From assembly GCA_017407905.1 (NCBI GenBank), contig JAFQVS010000040.1, positions 1-39,464 of the forward strand: DNA of 39,464 nt, read 5' to 3'. Below the pieces are notes generated by a model. The model searched no databases. It saw only the letters and a list, made by a program, of their open reading frames with translations, and had not been told where the DNA came from. This document shows positions 16,327 through 23,079 of the stretch, in pieces (within the stretch, counting starts at the first letter, position 1; the number at the start of each line of letters is the position of its first letter). A program made the translations under genes and the position numbers. The DNA comes from Bacteroidaceae bacterium. Its GTDB lineage: Bacteria; Bacteroidota; Bacteroidia; Bacteroidales; Bacteroidaceae.

Positions 16327-17376
16327 TTACTTTGCCTCGTTCTCGGGACGCAGCTGACGAACAACCTCGGCGGTGCGCCACATTTCGCTCTCGTGCAGAG
16401 CCTTGAGCTCCTCGTTGAGCTTCTCGCGATAATCGGGCTGCGAGTTTGAGTCGATTGAAATTTGTGCCTCACGACCGCTCTTAACCGACTCGTACAGCTG
16501 ATACATCACGGGCTTTATAGCATCGTGGAAGGGGCCCATCCAATCGAGGGCGCCGCGCTGCGCTGTTGTCGAGCAGTTGGCATACATCCAATCCATTCCC
16601 TTTGCGGCGAACAGAGGCATAAGCGACTGTGTAAGCTCCTCGACTGTCTCGTTGAAAGCCTCCGAGGGGGTGTGTCCATTCTCGCGCAGAACCTCGTACT
16701 GTGCAAGCAGAAGACCCTGAATAGCACCCATAAGCGAACCACGCTCGCCCGTAAGGTCGGAAACGGCCTCGCGCTGGAAGGTTGTCTCGAACATATAACC
16801 CGAGCCTATTCCGATGCCGAATGCAATTACGCGCTCCATTGCCCTGCCTGTTGCATCCTGATAGATTGCGTACGACGAGTTTAGTCCGCGGCCTTCGAGG
16901 AACATTGTGCGCAGCGATGTTCCCGAGCCTTTGGGAGCCACCATAATTACGTCAACGTCGGCGGGGGGAACAATGCCTGTGCGGTCGTTCCAATTTATTC
17001 CGAATCCGTGCGAGAAATAGAGAGCCTTGCCCGCTGTCAGATAGGGAACAACCTTAGGCCATACGGCAATCTGCGCTGCGTCCGAGAGCAGCATACAGAT
17101 GATTGTTCCCCTCTCGGCTGCCTCTTCGAGAGAGAAGAGTGTCTCGCCGGGTACCCAGCCGTCGCTCACAGCCTTATCGTAGGTCTTTCCCTCGCGCTGA
17201 CCGACAATTACATTAAAGCCGTTGTCGCGCAGATTGCAAGCCTGTCCGGGGCCCTGTACGCCGTAGCCCAGCACAGCAATAGTCTCGTTTTTCAAAATCT
17301 CACGTGCTTTCTCAAGCGAAAATTCTTTGGGAGTGATTACATTCTCAATTACTCCACCAAAATTCATCTCTGCCAT
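16327..17376 (-). CDS. ilvC: ketol-acid reductoisomerase
   Basis: It converts 2-acetolactate or 2-aceto-2-hydroxybutyrate to the dihydroxy acid with NADPH and Mg2+, the second step of valine/isoleucine synthesis. 349 residues, the length of the short (class I) enzyme. The Rossmann loop GYGVQGPGQ is at 37-45. The APKGSG segment and the C-terminal helical domain with conserved acidic residues (SDLTGERG, ETVEELT) match the family. It is last in the ilvD-ilvB-ilvN-ilvC operon, 41 bases after ilvN, and is followed by a strong terminator. Confidence 0.96.
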   Translation of the reverse strand: MAEMNFGGVIENVITPKEFSLEKAREILKNETIAVLGYGVQGPGQACNLRDNGFNVIVGQREGKTYDKAVSDGWVPGETLFSLEEAAERGTIICMLLSDAAQIAVWPKVVPYLTAGKALYFSHGFGINWNDRTGIVPPADVDVIMVAPKGSGTSLRTMFLEGRGLNSSYAIYQDATGRAMERVIAFGIGIGSGYMFETTFQREAVSDLTGERGSLMGAIQGLLLAQYEVLRENGHTPSEAFNETVEELTQSLMPLFAAKGMDWMYANCSTTAQRGALDWMGPFHDAIKPVMYQLYESVKSGREAQISIDSNSQPDYREKLNEELKALHESEMWRTAEVVRQLRPENEAK

Positions 17377-17417: not shown

Positions 17418-17969
17418 TTATTCGCGTGTGCGGTTGGCATCCTCGTCAAAGACGTATAGCTGCTCGGTTAGATGCTCAATGACGTCGCGCGTAACGGCAA
17501 TGTGTCCCGATTTTACAAATTGCAGCACACACTCCTCGGCCGCAAACTCCTTATAGAGTTTTATGATTGTCTCGGTCTTACCCGTCTGCTCTACCACCGT
17601 ATAGGTTGAGTTTATCTCAATAACGCGGGCGTTGTTGTGCCTTATTATGCGCGATATTTGTTTATTATCCAATAGTTTAGGGGTAGATATTTTATACAGG
17701 GCAACCTCTTGTACGAATATCTCATCCTCGGTATAATAGTTGGCGCGCAGAATGTCGATTTTTTTCTCTAAGCGCTTTACTACTTTTTGTATAATCTCCT
17801 CCTCGCTCCACAGTGAGAGTGTGTAACGGTGCACGCCCTCAATCGAGGACGACGATACGTTTAACGTCTCGATATTCATCTGACGGCGGGTAAACTCGGA
17901 AGTAACCTGATTCAGCACACCTGCAAGGTTCTCGGAATATATGATTACAGTATATAATTTCTTGTCCAT
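17418..17969 (-). CDS. ilvN: acetolactate synthase small (regulatory) subunit
   Basis: 183 residues with an N-terminal ACT domain (about 1-78: YTVIIYSENLAGVLNQV ... MNIETLNVS) and a C-terminal IlvN domain. The subunit activates the catalytic subunit and makes it sensitive to feedback by valine. It starts 6 bases after the ilvB stop, consistent with stoichiometric co-translation. Nothing is missing relative to the usual architecture. Confidence 0.93.
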   Translation of the reverse strand: MDKKLYTVIIYSENLAGVLNQVTSEFTRRQMNIETLNVSSSSIEGVHRYTLSLWSEEEIIQKVVKRLEKKIDILRANYYTEDEIFVQEVALYKISTPKLLDNKQISRIIRHNNARVIEINSTYTVVEQTGKTETIIKLYKEFAAEECVLQFVKSGHIAVTRDVIEHLTEQLYVFDEDANRTRE

Positions 17970-17975
17970 ACTCTT

Positions 17976-19667
17976 TTACTCTAAGACCATATCACATATT
18001 GAGGCTCCGGGGGGAATCATCGGCATTACGTTGTCCTCTTCCTCTACTGCGACGTGCAGTAGGAAAGCTCCGGGCGTCTCTATCATCTCGCGCACGGCGT
18101 CGGCAAGCTCTTCGCGCTTTACTACCAGACGCGAAGGGATTCCGTAGGCCGAGGCTATCATATTGTAGTCGGGGTTCATCATCGGTGTCCACGAGTAACG
18201 ATTGTTGTAGAACATCTCCTGCCACTGACGTACGTTGCCCAGATAGTTGTTGTTCATAAGAATCATTTTCACGGGGACACGCTGCTCCATTATGGTTCCA
18301 AGCTCCTGCATATTCATCTGGAAGCCTCCGTCGCCCATAAAGACGCACACTGTTCTATCGGGAACGGCCATCGAGGCGCCTACCGCGGCCGGAAGGCCGT
18401 AGCCCATTGTTCCGAGGCCGCCCGAGGTGAGCACGCTGTGAGGCTTTGTATATTTGAAATATCGACAGGCCATCATCTGATTCTGTCCCACGTCGGTTAC
18501 GAGTATCGCGCTGTTGTTTGTGGCATCGCTTACGCATCGTGCCACCTCGCCCATTTTTATGGGGCCCTCTTTGGGGTTGAGTGCCTTGTCGATGACACGT
18601 TCCTGCTCTATTGCATCGTAGTCGGCGAAGCTCTCAATCCACTCTTTATGGCTGCCCTCGGGCATAAGCTCGGTGATGAGCGGAAGCGTCTCCTTGCAAT
18701 CGCCAATGACGGGAATATCTGCTTTTACGCATTTGTCAATCTCGGCACGGTCTATGTCAAGATGGATTATTTTGGCCTGCTTGGCGTATGTTGTAAGGTC
18801 GCCCGTTACGCGGTCGCTGAAGCGCATTCCGATGGCTATTATTACGTCTGCCTGATTGGTGTTTATGTTGCAGCTGAGGTTACCGTGCATTCCCAACATT
18901 CCCATTGTCAGAGGGTAGTCGCTGGGCAGAGCCGAGAGGCCCAGCAGTGTACGGGCAGCTGGGATATTTCCTTTTTCGAGGAAGGCTTTCAGCTCTTCGT
19001 GTGCTTCGCCAAGTTCGACGCCCTGCCCCACAAGAGCATAGGGACGCTGCGCACGGCCAATAAGCTCGGCGGCGGCCTTTACGGCCTCGGGCAGAGGCTT
19101 GGGATAGGGTACGTAGCTGCGTATCTTGCCCAGCTCGGCGGGCTCGTATGCCACCTGCGATACTTGTGCATTTTTTGTAAAATCGAGTACAACGGGGCCG
19201 GGACGGCCGCTGCGGGCAATATAGAATGCGCGGGCAACGGCCCAAGCAATATCCTCGGCACGACGTATCTGGTAGCTCCATTTGCTAATGGGTTGCGTTA
19301 CGCCCACGAGGTCAATTTCTTGGAACGCATCGGTGCCGAGCACTCCCGAGGCTACCTGTCCGGCAATTACCACAATGGGGGTGCTGTCGAGAATAGCGTC
19401 GCTTATTCCCGTGAGTGTATTTGTTGCACCGGGGCCGCTTGTTACAATGCAGACGCCCACCCTGCCCGAGCTGCGCGCATAGCCCTCGGCGGCGTGTGTT
19501 GCGCCCTGCTCGTGTCGCACCAGCACCTGTCTGAAATTGTGTCGGTGGTCGTACATTGCGTCGAACACGGGCATTATTGAGCCTCCGGGATAGCCGAATA
19601 TGGTGTCAACGCCCTCGTTCATTAGTGCACGCATAAGGGCTTCGGCTCCTGTTATAATCTCTTTCAT
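17976..19667 (-). CDS. ilvB: acetolactate synthase large (catalytic) subunit, biosynthetic
   Basis: A thiamine-diphosphate enzyme making 2-acetolactate from two pyruvates, or 2-aceto-2-hydroxybutyrate from pyruvate plus 2-oxobutyrate. 563 residues: an N-terminal ThDP-binding domain with the catalytic Glu53 (RHEQGA), a central FAD-type domain, and a C-terminal ThDP domain with GDGG (445-448) and NNNYLGN (472-478), the metal/ThDP motif. The paired ilvN gene identifies it as the anabolic enzyme. It lies 21 bases after ilvD. Confidence 0.95.
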   Translation of the reverse strand: MKEIITGAEALMRALMNEGVDTIFGYPGGSIMPVFDAMYDHRHNFRQVLVRHEQGATHAAEGYARSSGRVGVCIVTSGPGATNTLTGISDAILDSTPIVVIAGQVASGVLGTDAFQEIDLVGVTQPISKWSYQIRRAEDIAWAVARAFYIARSGRPGPVVLDFTKNAQVSQVAYEPAELGKIRSYVPYPKPLPEAVKAAAELIGRAQRPYALVGQGVELGEAHEELKAFLEKGNIPAARTLLGLSALPSDYPLTMGMLGMHGNLSCNINTNQADVIIAIGMRFSDRVTGDLTTYAKQAKIIHLDIDRAEIDKCVKADIPVIGDCKETLPLITELMPEGSHKEWIESFADYDAIEQERVIDKALNPKEGPIKMGEVARCVSDATNNSAILVTDVGQNQMMACRYFKYTKPHSVLTSGGLGTMGYGLPAAVGASMAVPDRTVCVFMGDGGFQMNMQELGTIMEQRVPVKMILMNNNYLGNVRQWQEMFYNNRYSWTPMMNPDYNMIASAYGIPSRLVVKREELADAVREMIETPGAFLLHVAVEEEDNVMPMIPPGASICDMVLE

Positions 19668-19688: not shown

Positions 19689-21491
19689 TTAGTCTATTAT
19701 TCTCACTCCACCCTTGTCGGCCGAGCTCACCATATTAGCGTATGCTCTGAGGCTTTTCGAGACTACGCGGTCGCGTGTCAGGGGGAACATTTCGCGTGCG
19801 GCAAGTTCTTCGTCGCTCAAGCGTACGTTTATCGTGCGGTTGGGAATGTCAATGTCGATAATGTCGCCGCTGCGCAGCTTGCCGATATTACCTCCTGCGG
19901 CTGCCTCGGGCGAGATGTGGCCGATGCTCAGTCCCGATGTTCCGCCGCTGAAGCGGCCGTCGGTGATAAGGGCGCACTCTTTGCCCAGATGGCGCGATTT
20001 TATATAGGAGGTGGGATAGAGCATTTCCTGCATTCCCGGGCCGCCTTTCGGGCCCTCATATACTATTACGACAACGTCGCCTGCCTGAACCTCGCCACCG
20101 AGAATGCCCTCGACGGCGGCGTCCTGCGAGTCGAATACTTTTGCCGTGCCTGTGAATTTCCAGATGCTCTCATCGACGCCTGCTGTCTTTACAACGCATC
20201 CGTCCTGAGCTATATTTCCAAATAGTATGGCAAGGCCGCCGTCCTTTGTATAGGCGTGCTCAAGGTCGCGTATGCAGCCGTCGGCGCGGTCGCTGTCGAG
20301 CGTCTCGTACATATTGCTCTGCGCGCCCATCTTGTTGCAGAAAACATTTGCGGGGGCGGTGCCGTAGATGCGTCGGGCCTCGGGGCTCACCGTCTCGGCT
20401 GTAACCGAGTAGCGCTCAATATCTTCGGCAAGGGTGGCACCGTTTACTCGCTTGAGTGCGGTGTTCAGAAGGCCGCCCTTTGCAAGCTCGCCCATAATGC
20501 CGATGATGCCACCCGCGCGGCCGCAATCCTGCACGCTGTATTTTGCGGTGTTGGGGGCCAATTTACACAGACAGGGGACGGCACGGCTCAGACGGTCAAT
20601 GTCGCTCATACAAAAATCGACCCCGGCCTCTTGCGCCACTGCCAAAAGGTGCAGTATGGTGTTTGTCGAGCCGCCCATTGCAATGTCCAGCGTCATTGCG
20701 TTGAGGAAGGCCTCGCGCACGGCGATGCTGCGCGGAAGCACGCTCTCGTCGCCCTCTTCGTAGTATTTCATTGCGTTCACTACTATCTGACGAGCGGCGT
20801 CCTTGAGCAGTTGCACGCGGTTGGTGTGTGTAGCCAAAATTGTGCCGTTGCCGGGCAGCGACAGACCGATGGCCTCAGTGAGTGAGTTCATTGAGTTGGC
20901 CGTGAACATTCCCGAGCAGCATCCGCAGCCGGGGCACGAGCGTTTCTCAATCTCGGCAAGCTCCTCGTCGCTGACGCTTGTATCGGCAGCCTTTACCATT
21001 GCCGAGATAAGGTCGAGGTTCTGTCCCTGCCACGTACCCTTTTCCATCGGGCCGCCCGAGACAAAGACGGTGGGAATATTCAAACGCATCGAGGCCATTA
21101 ACATTCCCGGGGTTATCTTATCGCAGTTCGAGATGCACACGAGCGCATCTACCTTGTGGGCGTTGCACATATACTCGACGCTGTCGGCTATAATATCGCG
21201 CGAGGGCAGCGAGTAGAGCATTCCATCGTGTCCCATTGCAATGCCATCGTCTATGGCTATTGTGTTAAACTCGGCTGCGTAGCATCCGAGCTTCTCAATC
21301 TCTTGCTTAACAATCTGTCCCGCCTCGTGCAGATGAGTGTGTCCGGGCACAAGCTGTGTAAAAGAGTTTGCTATTCCTATAATAGGCTTGCCGAACATCT
21401 CGCGTTTCATTCCGTTGGCAATCCAAAGGGCGCGGGCTCCTGCCATACGTCGTCCCTCGGTACACTGTGCGCTTCTTAATTTTATTTTCAT
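19689..21491 (-). CDS. ilvD: dihydroxy-acid dehydratase
   Basis: It dehydrates 2,3-dihydroxy-isovalerate or 2,3-dihydroxy-3-methylvalerate to the 2-oxo acid. 600 residues from the ATG at 21491; a longer frame to 21554 is rejected because it would add a non-conserved stretch. Fe-S ligand candidates are Cys123 (CISNCDK) and Cys191 or Cys192 ([11 protein letters not shown], 186-196). It is the first structural gene of the operon and lies about 100 bases downstream of the attenuator terminator, so read-through of that terminator controls the whole operon. Confidence 0.95.
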
Positions 21492-21590
21492 AATTCTCTT
21501 ATATTGTGCCCCGCTGCCCTTACGATGTGCGCCTTGCAGAAAAAAGCGACACATTTTTGTTTAATAAGCAGCCGAGGCCTCTTTTGTTTA

Positions 21591-21623
21591 TAAAAAAAGC
21601 CCTTCTCATATACAGAGAAAGGC
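21591..21623 (-). terminator. attenuator terminator of the ilv leader
   Basis: GCCTTTCTC, a 7-base loop and GAGAAGGGC form a 9-bp stem (one G-U), followed by seven T. It lies 27 bases after the leader-peptide stop and about 100 bases before ilvD, on the same strand. With the leader peptide it fits transcription attenuation. Confidence 0.85.
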
Positions 21624-21649
21624 ATCTTATTTTAGATACATAGCCAATC

Positions 21650-21718
21650 TCATCCCACTGTTTCCGATAGGACGACAATAGCGTTAATAATGACTGAATT
21701 ATTATATTGGCTGTGCAT
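21650..21718 (-). CDS. ilv operon leader peptide (22 aa)
   Basis: A 22-codon frame from ATG 21718 to TGA 21650 whose core reads VIINAIVVL: seven of nine residues are Val, Ile or Leu, and eight of 22 overall. It has an AAGGA ribosome site 5 bases before the ATG and a consensus promoter about 25 bases upstream. A 7-base block in its first codons (AGCCAAT) is exactly complementary to ATTGGCT one base after its stop codon. This is the structure expected of a branched-chain amino-acid attenuator; stalling at Val/Ile codons would favour read-through into ilvDBNC. Being a leader, its peptide product need not have a role of its own. Confidence 0.82.
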   Translation of the reverse strand: MHSQYNNSVIINAIVVLSETVG

Positions 21719-21742
21719 AATATTCCTTTTTCTTAACAGCTG

Positions 21743-21773
21743 CGAATGTAATGCAATTTTTCTGCACCACAAA
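21743..21773 (-). promoter_or_regulatory. ilv operon promoter
   Basis: TTTG (21770-21773), 19 bases, then TACATTCG (21743-21750), close to the TAnnTTTG consensus. The start of transcription would fall some 15-20 bases before the leader ATG. Confidence 0.7.
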
Positions 21774-21889
21774 ACAAAAAGCAAAAAAAATAGCAGAAAG
21801 AATATCAAAAAAACATTTTTTGCTTAAAAGTGTAAATAAAATTGTTCCCCAAAAAGGCTTTTTCGGCTACAAAAGGTCTTTTATTGGTT

Positions 21890-21932
21890 AAAAAAATATA
21901 ATCCCGACTTTGCATAGAAAGAGGGGATTATA
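21890..21932 (-). terminator. intrinsic terminator downstream of panE
   Basis: TATAATCCC and GGGATTATA form a 9-bp stem with an inner CTTT/AAAG pairing, followed on the minus strand by seven T. It lies 137 bases past the panE stop and before the ilv promoter. Confidence 0.75.
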
Positions 21933-22013
21933 AATTTTTATTCGTTTATCACATTCATTTACATAAATAGTGAATATTTTTACAAAAAGACATCGACTAT
22001 CGGCAATTGCGCT

Positions 22014-22062
22014 GTTTTTTTCGACAATTTGCGGCCGGGGCGGCCGATTATCGCAAAAAAAA
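22014..22062. repeat. GC-rich hairpin flanked by T-run and A-run (reversed terminator layout)
   Basis: CGACAAT, TTG bulge, CGGCCG, GGG loop, CGGCCG, ATTATCG. On both strands the T-run comes before the stem and the A-run after it, so neither strand gives a normal terminator. The flanking runs can themselves pair and extend the stem beyond 20 bp. It starts 6 bases after the panE stop codon. Confidence 0.65.
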
Positions 22063-22068
22063 TGCCTC

Positions 22069-23079
22069 TTAAACAAAGAATTTAAGATTGTCGAACGAGG
22101 GCGAGAGCTCGCCCTTCTCGATGCGATGCACAATGCTCACCACCGCATCGTTCATAGGCGTTGGCACAGAGACCTTGCGGCCAAAGGCGCTCACAACGCC
22201 GTTAATAGCATCAACCTCGGTCATTTTGCCCTTTTCGAGGTCTTGCAGCATACTCGCCTTCAGAAGCGCGTGCTTGCGTATCGCAATTGGTATTATAAAG
22301 AACGAAAAGGCCTTTTTAATGCGACTTTTATAGTCGAGTAGCTTGACAATATCCTTGCCCTGCACAGGCTCAATCTTGATATTTGCGGCTGCGCACACAT
22401 CAATGCACTCCTTTATGAGCGCCTGCACCACCCGACGCGAGGCCTTGTTACCCGCCGCCTCGCCGAACGTACAGCCCAGCACAGCGCTCATCCCCGAAAA
22501 GGCCGAGTTTATAAGCAGCTTGCTCCAGCGCGAGCCGATGAAATTGCTGTCAATCTCGACCCGTCCCATCTTTTCGAGCAGCCTCTTTACCTCGCCAATA
22601 TGAGCATTGGGCTGCCTATGCAACGAGCCCAGCGAGAAGCTCAACGCCTCGGGGGCGCTTGTAAGCTCGCACACTCCGGGGGCGGTCATTGTGGCACCCC
22701 ACGCTACGGTGCAGCCCAGCACACGCTCGTCGCCCACAATCTCGCCTATTTGCAGCTCGGGGATTCCATTCTGAAGGGTTACTATCACACCGTCGGCAGC
22801 AAGATAGTTTTTCAGATAGGTAACAACCTCGGCATTCTGCTGTTGCTTGGTCATAAGGAAAATAATATCGTACAGGCCCGACATTTCATCGGGGGTGTAT
22901 GCGGTTACCTTTTGCGTAAAATTAACCGTGCCCGTTACGGTTGCACCCACCGTGCGCAGCGCCTCGACGTGCGCCTTATTGCGGTTGATAAGCTCTATTT
23001 CTGCTCCGTTTTTTGTAATGTAGGCGCCCAAAATTGTCCCCAAAGAACCTGCGCCATATATTGCTGCTCTCATAATCAT
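22069..23079 (-). CDS. panE: 2-dehydropantoate 2-reductase (ketopantoate reductase)
   Basis: It reduces ketopantoate to pantoate with NADPH, a step of pantothenate/CoA synthesis. 336 residues. The N-terminal nucleotide-binding loop is GAGSLGTILGAY (about 9-20). The ApbA/PanE C-terminal domain carries a Lys (SRWSKLLINSAF) that matches the catalytic lysine and Asn environment of the family. Ketopantoate derives from 2-oxoisovalerate, the product of the neighbouring ilvC/ilvD pathway, so the location is metabolically sensible although it has its own promoter. An ATG two codons in (23073) is an alternative start. Confidence 0.9.
   Translation of the reverse strand: MIMRAAIYGAGSLGTILGAYITKNGAEIELINRNKAHVEALRTVGATVTGTVNFTQKVTAYTPDEMSGLYDIIFLMTKQQQNAEVVTYLKNYLAADGVIVTLQNGIPELQIGEIVGDERVLGCTVAWGATMTAPGVCELTSAPEALSFSLGSLHRQPNAHIGEVKRLLEKMGRVEIDSNFIGSRWSKLLINSAFSGMSAVLGCTFGEAAGNKASRRVVQALIKECIDVCAAANIKIEPVQGKDIVKLLDYKSRIKKAFSFFIIPIAIRKHALLKASMLQDLEKGKMTEVDAINGVVSAFGRKVSVPTPMNDAVVSIVHRIEKGELSPSFDNLKFFV

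Follow-up and report, generated by a model that had tools for sequence, protein, structure and literature searches.

What controls the branched-chain amino-acid (BCAA) operon ilvDBNC in this member of the Bacteroidaceae, and does the short reading frame ahead of ilvD take part in that control? The window, that is, the whole stretch of 39,464 nucleotides that was analysed, is a single contig from a 2.3 Mb assembly with 84% completeness. A prediction made from its letters alone (the original prediction) had proposed that ilvD is preceded by a complete transcription attenuator with a Val/Ile/Leu-rich leader peptide, and every element that it named was found within 21592-21773 on the minus strand. 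Comparison over many genomes supported the core of this proposal, a ribosome-mediated attenuator controlling ilvDBNC, and corrected its pairing scheme. It is therefore our firm expectation that 21592-21773 acts as a ribosome-mediated transcription attenuator of ilvDBNC, most likely keeping the BCAA genes off unless these amino acids are scarce.

The four genes are consecutive on the minus strand, and the profile matches of each exceeded an NCBIfam cut-off.

19689..21491, minus strand: ilvD, dihydroxy-acid dehydratase (TIGR00110 and NF009103 above cut-off; start placed from homologues)
17976..19667, minus strand: ilvB, acetolactate synthase large subunit (TIGR00118 above cut-off)
17418..17969, minus strand: ilvN, acetolactate synthase small subunit (TIGR00119 above cut-off)
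16327..17376, minus strand: ilvC, ketol-acid reductoisomerase (TIGR00465 above cut-off)

By ilvD similarity, the closest named relatives were metagenome assemblies of Bacteroidaceae and Prevotellaceae (89-81%) and Phocaeicola (79%). Promoter-like boxes and a leader reading frame lie upstream of ilvD.

21770..21773, minus strand: TTTG, putative promoter element of the -33 type (sequence)
21743..21750, minus strand: TACATTCG, putative promoter element of the -7 type, TAnnTTTG-like with one mismatch
21650..21718, minus strand: leader peptide ORF MHSQYNNSVIINAIVVLSETVG, 22 codons, ATG at 21718, stop TGA at 21652-21650
21668..21694, minus strand: control codons V9 I10 I11 N12 A13 I14 V15 V16 L17 (sequence and codon comparison)

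A Bacteroidetes-type promoter had been predicted, and Bacteroidota-type boxes are indeed present, with a spacer of 19 nt between TTTG and TACATTCG; both TTTG as a -33 box and this spacing agree with the usual consensus. The -7 consensus TAnnTTTG is quoted for a Flavobacterium in PMC9723704, and TTTCG or TTTTG boxes resembling TACATTCG were seen by eye in relatives. The leader of 22 codons with the core VIINAIVVL was present as described, its stop 158 nt from ilvD. The SD-like AAGGA assigned to it is also present (21728-21724, minus strand), but a Shine-Dalgarno role for this motif was rejected because Bacteroidia ribosomes have been reported to fail to recognise Shine-Dalgarno sequences (PMC9976891). 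AAGGA is thus probably not what starts leader translation.

Within the window alone, the run of Ile/Leu/Val codons was not significant (shuffle p 0.124), and the case is made by comparison with relatives. Regions before ilvD were collected from 129 loci (L002-L130; L001, a duplicate of the window, was left out of all counts), and a fixed rule was applied, namely an ATG-initiated ORF of 14-50 codons with its stop 55-165 nt before ilvD and at least 7 of 12 codons for Ile, Leu or Val. BCAA-rich leaders were found before ilvD in 18/36 same-genus loci and in 49/78 other loci, the latter being what remained after 3 of 81 were dropped for short upstream sequence and including L075, which is titled Fibrobacter. 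None was found in 12 loci with clearly non-Bacteroidota titles, three of which (L098, L108, L111) have an upstream sequence shorter than 220 nt. When the cut-off was raised from 7 to 8, the rule selected 11/36 same-genus loci, 48/78 other loci and 19/2276 control windows from other loci. Setting the 12 loci aside by title, leaders occupied the same spot in 67/114 loci; examples are MMNLHTSVNLAVLHIIRVVVVASRA (Candidatus Bacteroides pullicola, L045), MITSTSINLSLLDIISVVVVPSRA (B. graminisolvens, L054) and MLSFNVIIIVIIISIVIIRMRIREDVHIQ (Marinifilum, L090). Among the 11 loci titled Prevotella, Prevotellaceae or Marseilla, nine were without a leader (L033, L036, L040, L042, L043, L046, L047, L052, L055) and two had one (L053, L066). 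For 17 leaders, taken from the genus and from L032, a close relative, Ile, Leu and Val made up 42.5% of the codons in frame vs. 26.7% and 15.8% in the alternative frames. The in-frame share was 51.7% in 46 other leaders, and the alternative frames of both sets lay at 12%-27%; this comparison is descriptive, as the leaders entered had been picked as rich in these residues.

Two further observations were made during this survey. By eye, ilvD of L102 (an Odoribacteraceae assembly) is preceded by two successive units, each made of a leader and a terminator. Genome G002 (7% contamination) carries two different ilvD copies, one with a leader and one without (L021 and L116), and is probably a mixture of species.

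At the original cut-off, 69/2276 control windows passed the rule, so short, AT-rich ORFs rich in Ile, Leu and Val are not rare. This could be taken to mean that the leader is a chance ORF lying next to the terminator of the panE-like gene upstream. That gene, however, ends at 22069, approximately 450 nt upstream, with promoter-like boxes in between, and the swap and spacing results described below are not expected by chance; we regard a chance origin as scarcely credible. The pairing segments of the proposed attenuator are listed next. Percentages of cells below refer to alignment A1, which consists of 21 chosen same-genus sequences.

21667..21675, minus strand: strand 1 (UCGUCCUAU), built of control codons and pairing around the stop codon with GUGGGAUGA (83.1% of cells; fold)
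21650..21658, minus strand: 3' side of hairpin 1:2 (GUGGGAUGA), including the stop codon (fold and pairing count)
21643..21651, minus strand: strand 2 of the antiterminator (GAGAUUGGC), overlapping the stop codon (cross-genome match and pairing count)
21634..21637, minus strand: upper part of the antiterminator, AUCU, pairing with 21627-21624 (66.7% of cells; weakly conserved)
21624..21627, minus strand: upper part of the antiterminator, AGAU, pairing with AUCU at 21634-21637
21615..21623, minus strand: strand 3 (GCCUUUCUC), terminator 5' arm, common to antiterminator and terminator (invariant in the 21 sequences)
21599..21607, minus strand: strand 4 (GAGAAGGGC), terminator 3' arm (100% of cells paired)
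21592..21598, minus strand: U-tract of the intrinsic terminator, 7 T (sequence)
21706..21712, minus strand: AGCCAAU in codons 3-5, which can pair with AUUGGCU at 21648-21642 as a lineage-specific added cover of strand 2

The predicted intrinsic terminator before ilvD is present: GCCTTTCTC (21623-21615) and GAGAAGGGC (21607-21599) form a 9-bp stem followed by seven U, 100 nt before ilvD. A simple scan found it to be the sole terminator-like site in 21480-22080, a count that is not significant given 0.7 expected in shuffles. The fold energy of the window RNA was matched by 1/200 shuffles (z -2.79). A hairpin with a following T-run was also found by script in 63/67 candidate leaders; the exceptions were L018, L053, L102 and L115, of which L018 and L115 do show one on inspection. 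These terminators bear on whether the upstream ORF might act on the translation of ilvD, through re-initiation or exposure of the start site, rather than on transcription termination. Such a role would agree with a report that leader genes in Bacteroidetes peak 11-14 bp before structural genes, which was taken as re-initiation (PMC4833913). Here, in contrast, the leader stop is 158 nt from ilvD with the hairpin and U7 in between, and the terminators recur with the leaders; a purely translational role is very unlikely, and control of transcription termination remains our reading.

The antiterminator differed from that originally proposed. The pairing of GTATCT with AGATGC did not hold up as the main pairing, and it persists as the upper extension (AUCU:AGAU) of a core formed by GAGAUUGGC and GCCUUUCUC, which was paired in 98.0% of cells. 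No covariation was seen for the antiterminator within the genus because strand 3 is invariant there, and neither hairpin 1:2 nor the terminator showed covariation beyond shuffles in the 21 same-genus sequences. As the stems were therefore unprovable by covariation in the genus, cross-genome swaps were used.

Across genomes, the conserved alternative pairing joins a strand overlapping or following the leader stop to the terminator 5' arm; the window has GAGAUUGGC and GCCUUUCUC, and other loci often have UGAGAAAGG and CCUUUCUCA. In 48/63 leaders, the match of strand 2 to the 5' arm of the terminator was significant against shuffles (p <= 0.05; mean z -2.95). When partners were exchanged among 35 unique strand-3 types, own pairs reached -12.2 kcal/mol vs. 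-9.9 kcal/mol for permuted pairs and 0/20000 permutations were as good, a result that, like the other swap tests, is an average over genomes with relatedness ignored. The same outcome (0/20000) was obtained for the 25 rows with diverged arms, that is, arms lacking CCTTTCTC. As read from these sequences, the match between strands 2 and 3 is co-variation across genomes, relatedness being ignored. L006 was left out of the swap, hairpin, ribosome-folding and shuffle-control sets, its terminator having been miscalled.

Other pairings in the original scheme were of narrower scope. A second candidate antiterminator, AGAAAAAGG with CCTTTCTCT, is seen when the truncated window RNA is folded; it was rejected, as its 5' segment is kept, by eye, in the nearest relatives L003 and L004 only. 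The exact complementarity of AGCCAAT (21712-21706) and ATTGGCT (21648-21642) was confirmed in the window and is shared by L003 and, one base shorter, by L004, but it is not general. Folding without a ribosome gave this pairing P values of 0.81, 0.22 and 0.71 at three transcript lengths. TAATAAT and ATTATTA are likewise both present; they hardly bracket the regulatory codons, as had been supposed, because ATTATTA is itself codons 10-12 (Ile-Ile-Asn), so that the pair encloses little beyond S8-V9 and excludes the IVVL run. Together, the two pairings form in 47.7% of cells in the 21 same-genus sequences vs. 29%-43% when slid, and they were rejected as general parts of the mechanism.

The position of strand 2 was consistent with control by a ribosome. 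Geometry was assessed in 57 rows, since 5/62 rows with dG above -8.5 were left out here and in the hairpin 1:2 test. The start of strand 2 was 13-22 nt downstream of the last control codon, counted from that codon's first base, in 53/57 rows and between -1 and +9 nt from the first base of the stop codon in 45/57 rows; in 11/57 rows it was well inside the ORF and not at the stop. A ribosome covers approximately 12-13 nt beyond its A-site codon. Given the 13-22 nt spacing, a stalled ribosome should therefore expose strand 2 and a terminating ribosome should cover it. In L007, L008, L021 and L023, the reading frame closes earlier and the strand 2 sequence stays in place; thus, the constraint on the RNA is separable from that on the peptide. 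The common strand 2 sequence, (U)GAGAAAGG, found at 21643-21651 in the window and in relatives, also appears complementary to the 16S rRNA tail of Bacteroidota, possibly by coincidence.

Folding of only the RNA beyond the ribosome pointed in the same direction. Strand 3 was captured (P > 0.5) in 59/62 rows when the stall was placed on the last control codon vs. 2/62 when the ribosome stood at the stop, the window itself showing a modest contrast in this simulation of all rows (0.72 stalled vs. 0.42 at the stop). Shuffled spacers also captured strand 3 (null mean 0.51 vs. 0.77), and the values of 35/62 rows were reached by <= 2/50 shuffles; hence the difference between the stalled and stop positions arises partly because more RNA is free when the ribosome is stalled. 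In the window's RNA, as long as strand 4 had not been transcribed, stalls at I14-L17 gave a P(2:3) of 0.97-0.99 and stalls at V9-I11 one of 0.70-0.89, compared with 0.00 for a ribosome at the stop. When half of strand 4 had emerged, the values were 0.82-0.96 (I14-L17) and 0.01-0.18 (V9-I11), so the first three control codons look like poor switches. Once strand 4 was complete, the terminator was favoured in every state (P(3:4) 0.99-1.00); the model therefore needs the antiterminator to form first, and timing matters. When the RNA on both sides of the stalled ribosome was allowed to pair, P(2:3) was 0.00 even before strand 4 because AGCCAAU:AUUGGCU takes strand 2.

Hairpin 1:2, the potential protector of strand 2, was less uniform. 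Swapping each leader coding strand against its own strand 2, with relatedness ignored, gave 0/20000 permutations as good for 41 rows outside the genus and 126/20000 for 16 genus rows; the result for 7 Bacteroides-like rows was not significant (2566/20000). The hairpin was weak relative to shuffles, with z below -1.64 in 6/16 genus rows and 12/41 other rows. In the window, AGCCAAU:AUUGGCU adds to this hairpin.

The region combines end-product codons in the leader ORF and an intrinsic terminator before ilvD with an antiterminator, GAGAUUGGC:GCCUUUCUC, that uses the terminator 5' arm and so excludes the terminator (98.0%; swap 0/20000), and its strand 2 is predicted to be free at the control codons and covered at the stop (53/57; 59/62 vs. 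2/62, with the shuffle control partly unfavourable). The parts, the codon bias, the conservation of the pairings, their co-variation across genomes and the spacing are established by sequence and comparison. From these we infer the following course of events. Transcription would start near 21740, and a ribosome would translate the 22-codon leader. With charged Val, Ile and Leu tRNA plentiful, the ribosome would reach UGA and cover strand 2, pairing 3:4 would form, and the polymerase would stop at the U-tract. On starvation, when these tRNAs run short, it would stall on the control codons, holding strand 1 within it and leaving strand 2 free just downstream; strand 2 could then capture strand 3 before strand 4 is made, so that the terminator would come too late and ilvDBNC would be co-transcribed. 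If the leader were not translated, hairpin 1:2 (joined here by AGCCAAU:AUUGGCU) and the terminator would form, and expression would stay low.

The leader is not present throughout the genus. An ilvD tree was built from 30/36 same-genus loci and four outgroups, with leader labels assigned by hand (L022 and L024 carry the label VVL though their leaders are weak, with 5/12 codons). Thirteen rows formed one clade (support 100/99) in which the VVL leader had disappeared (11) or given way to an Ile-rich one (2), a single evolutionary event. The clade mostly retains a terminator-like hairpin, L017 having a different one. A full leuA was missing in 9/13 of its genomes and present in 4/13, several of the assemblies being incomplete. 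As only one clade is concerned and leuA is present in 4/13, the association of leader loss with the absence of leuA is not independent evidence, and no cause is claimed.

Same-genus loci without a VVL-type leader, mostly with a terminator-like hairpin, comprise L015-L017, L020, L025-L031, L112, L113, L116 and L130. By eye, L028-L030, L112 and L130 have in common a TGT(T/C)CGG...TTCCG segment, some with a very short VVV ORF. L018, L019 and L115 have Ile-rich leaders (e.g., MYMRNSVIIAIGIIIQSTF) and belong to genomes without a full leuA; these leaders possibly reflect a retuning of the sensed amino acid.

The persistence of a terminator-like hairpin in most of the 13-row clade, where the VVL-type leader is absent or Ile-rich, might be explained by a terminator that is constitutive or that responds to something else (a protein, a small RNA or a metabolite), the short ORF being incidental; the codon run in the window, not significant by itself, could be read in the same way. 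Such a terminator, however, would leave unexplained why BCAA-rich leaders stand at the same spot in 67/114 loci with strand 2 at the stop codon, and why leaders before hisG or trpE carry His or Trp codons. An Rfam search covering T-boxes, riboswitches and amino-acid leaders gave no match at the gathering score in the window and 14 loci (three of them hisG loci). We judge a constitutive or differently sensed terminator to be improbable and continue with ribosome-mediated attenuation.

His-rich ORFs (at least four His in six codons) on the right strand, with a stop <= 350 nt from hisG, were found in 18/23 hisG loci, and in 21/23 when at least three His in six codons were accepted. Counted anywhere, they occurred in 20/23; applying strand and distance gave 18/23 (L132 is on the wrong strand and L152 is far away). 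The window's own genome has such a leader, MQLHNGHHHLSYAV, 90 nt before hisG (L138:1348-1410, contig C58). Trp-rich ORFs were located closely upstream of trpE in five of the best six of 19 loci (L184-L189), all from other families; those of L186, L187, L188 and L189 (WWW or WW) were convincing, with two in tandem in L188, that of L185 was unconvincing, and L184 had no Trp-rich ORF near trpE. No trpE match was obtained in 19 genomes of the window's genus. BCAA leaders directly before leuA were absent in the genus and present in 3/26 loci overall (L154, L162, L167; all other families), and a Thr/Ile leader before thrA was found in 1/24 loci, a weak one in another family (L203). The leaders rich in His or Trp that precede hisG and trpE make attenuation look like a general tool rather than an oddity of ilv, which suggests that it is a general strategy for amino-acid operons in these bacteria.

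On balance, we lean towards the view that, across Bacteroidales, ribosome-mediated attenuation is how ilv, his and trp operons are generally controlled and that this control is ancestral. Transcription and translation would then have to be tightly coupled, and ribosomes blind to Shine-Dalgarno sequences would have to initiate efficiently on leaders. In one sub-lineage, the leader would have been taken apart or shifted to Ile, in part together with the loss of leuA, with the terminator mostly kept. Together, these leaders define a precise set of attenuators that recurs widely in a phylum dominant in the gut, and no Rfam family matched in the loci scanned. Attenuation needs the first ribosome to be close to RNA polymerase; therefore, the leaders make coupling in Bacteroidota testable, as well as how short leaders start without Shine-Dalgarno pairing. 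From their sequences, one can also read which amino acids are sensed as limiting in a gut bacterium.

No ilv leader in Bacteroidales was described in the titles and abstracts of matching open-access PMC papers. A comparative survey from 2010 by Lopatovskaya and others, cited in PMC4833913, may already predict some of these leaders, and the available text of a 2010 survey of premature terminators (PMC2965389) contains no word beginning with 'bacteroid'. The mechanism is classical attenuation, which is already known; it is its wide extent in Bacteroidales that we did not find described. The attenuators of ilvGMEDA, ilvBN, trp, his and leu in Escherichia coli are the classical cases of ribosome-mediated attenuation. 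The element studied here resembles them in having codons for pathway products in the leader, mutually exclusive pairings (2:3, 3:4 and a putative 1:2), and a terminator before the first structural gene. It differs in phylum and sequence, in a strand 2 that usually overlaps the leader stop, often as UGAGAAAGG, in the gene order ilvD-B-N-C, and in a leader presumably translated by ribosomes that reportedly do not use Shine-Dalgarno pairing.

Leader-based control of BCAA genes has also been described in other phyla. An attenuator with three hairpins has been proposed for ilvBNC of Corynebacterium glutamicum (PMC11857589); this is likewise a leader attenuator of an ilvBNC operon, in Actinobacteria, and is likened here by its description in the available part of that source and not by sequence. 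A leucine-rich attenuator peptide of the BCAA genes has been reported in Staphylococcus aureus (PMC5794164). As here, a BCAA leader peptide attenuates BCAA synthesis genes, but S. aureus belongs to Firmicutes, and its peptide is Leu-rich and reportedly acts beside CodY. Closer to the window, ORFs reminiscent of leader peptides have been noted in 5' UTRs of B. thetaiotaomicron (PMC7366714). The original prediction knew of no characterised case in the phylum, a statement that needs a footnote for Flavobacterium psychrophilum, for which strong indications were reported that leader peptides attenuate amino-acid operons, short of mechanistic proof (PMC9723704). That species belongs to Flavobacteriaceae, and the available part of the account names neither an ilv leader nor an antiterminator; the species shares with the window the phylum and 5' regions that are structured and contain leader peptides ahead of operons for amino-acid biosynthesis.
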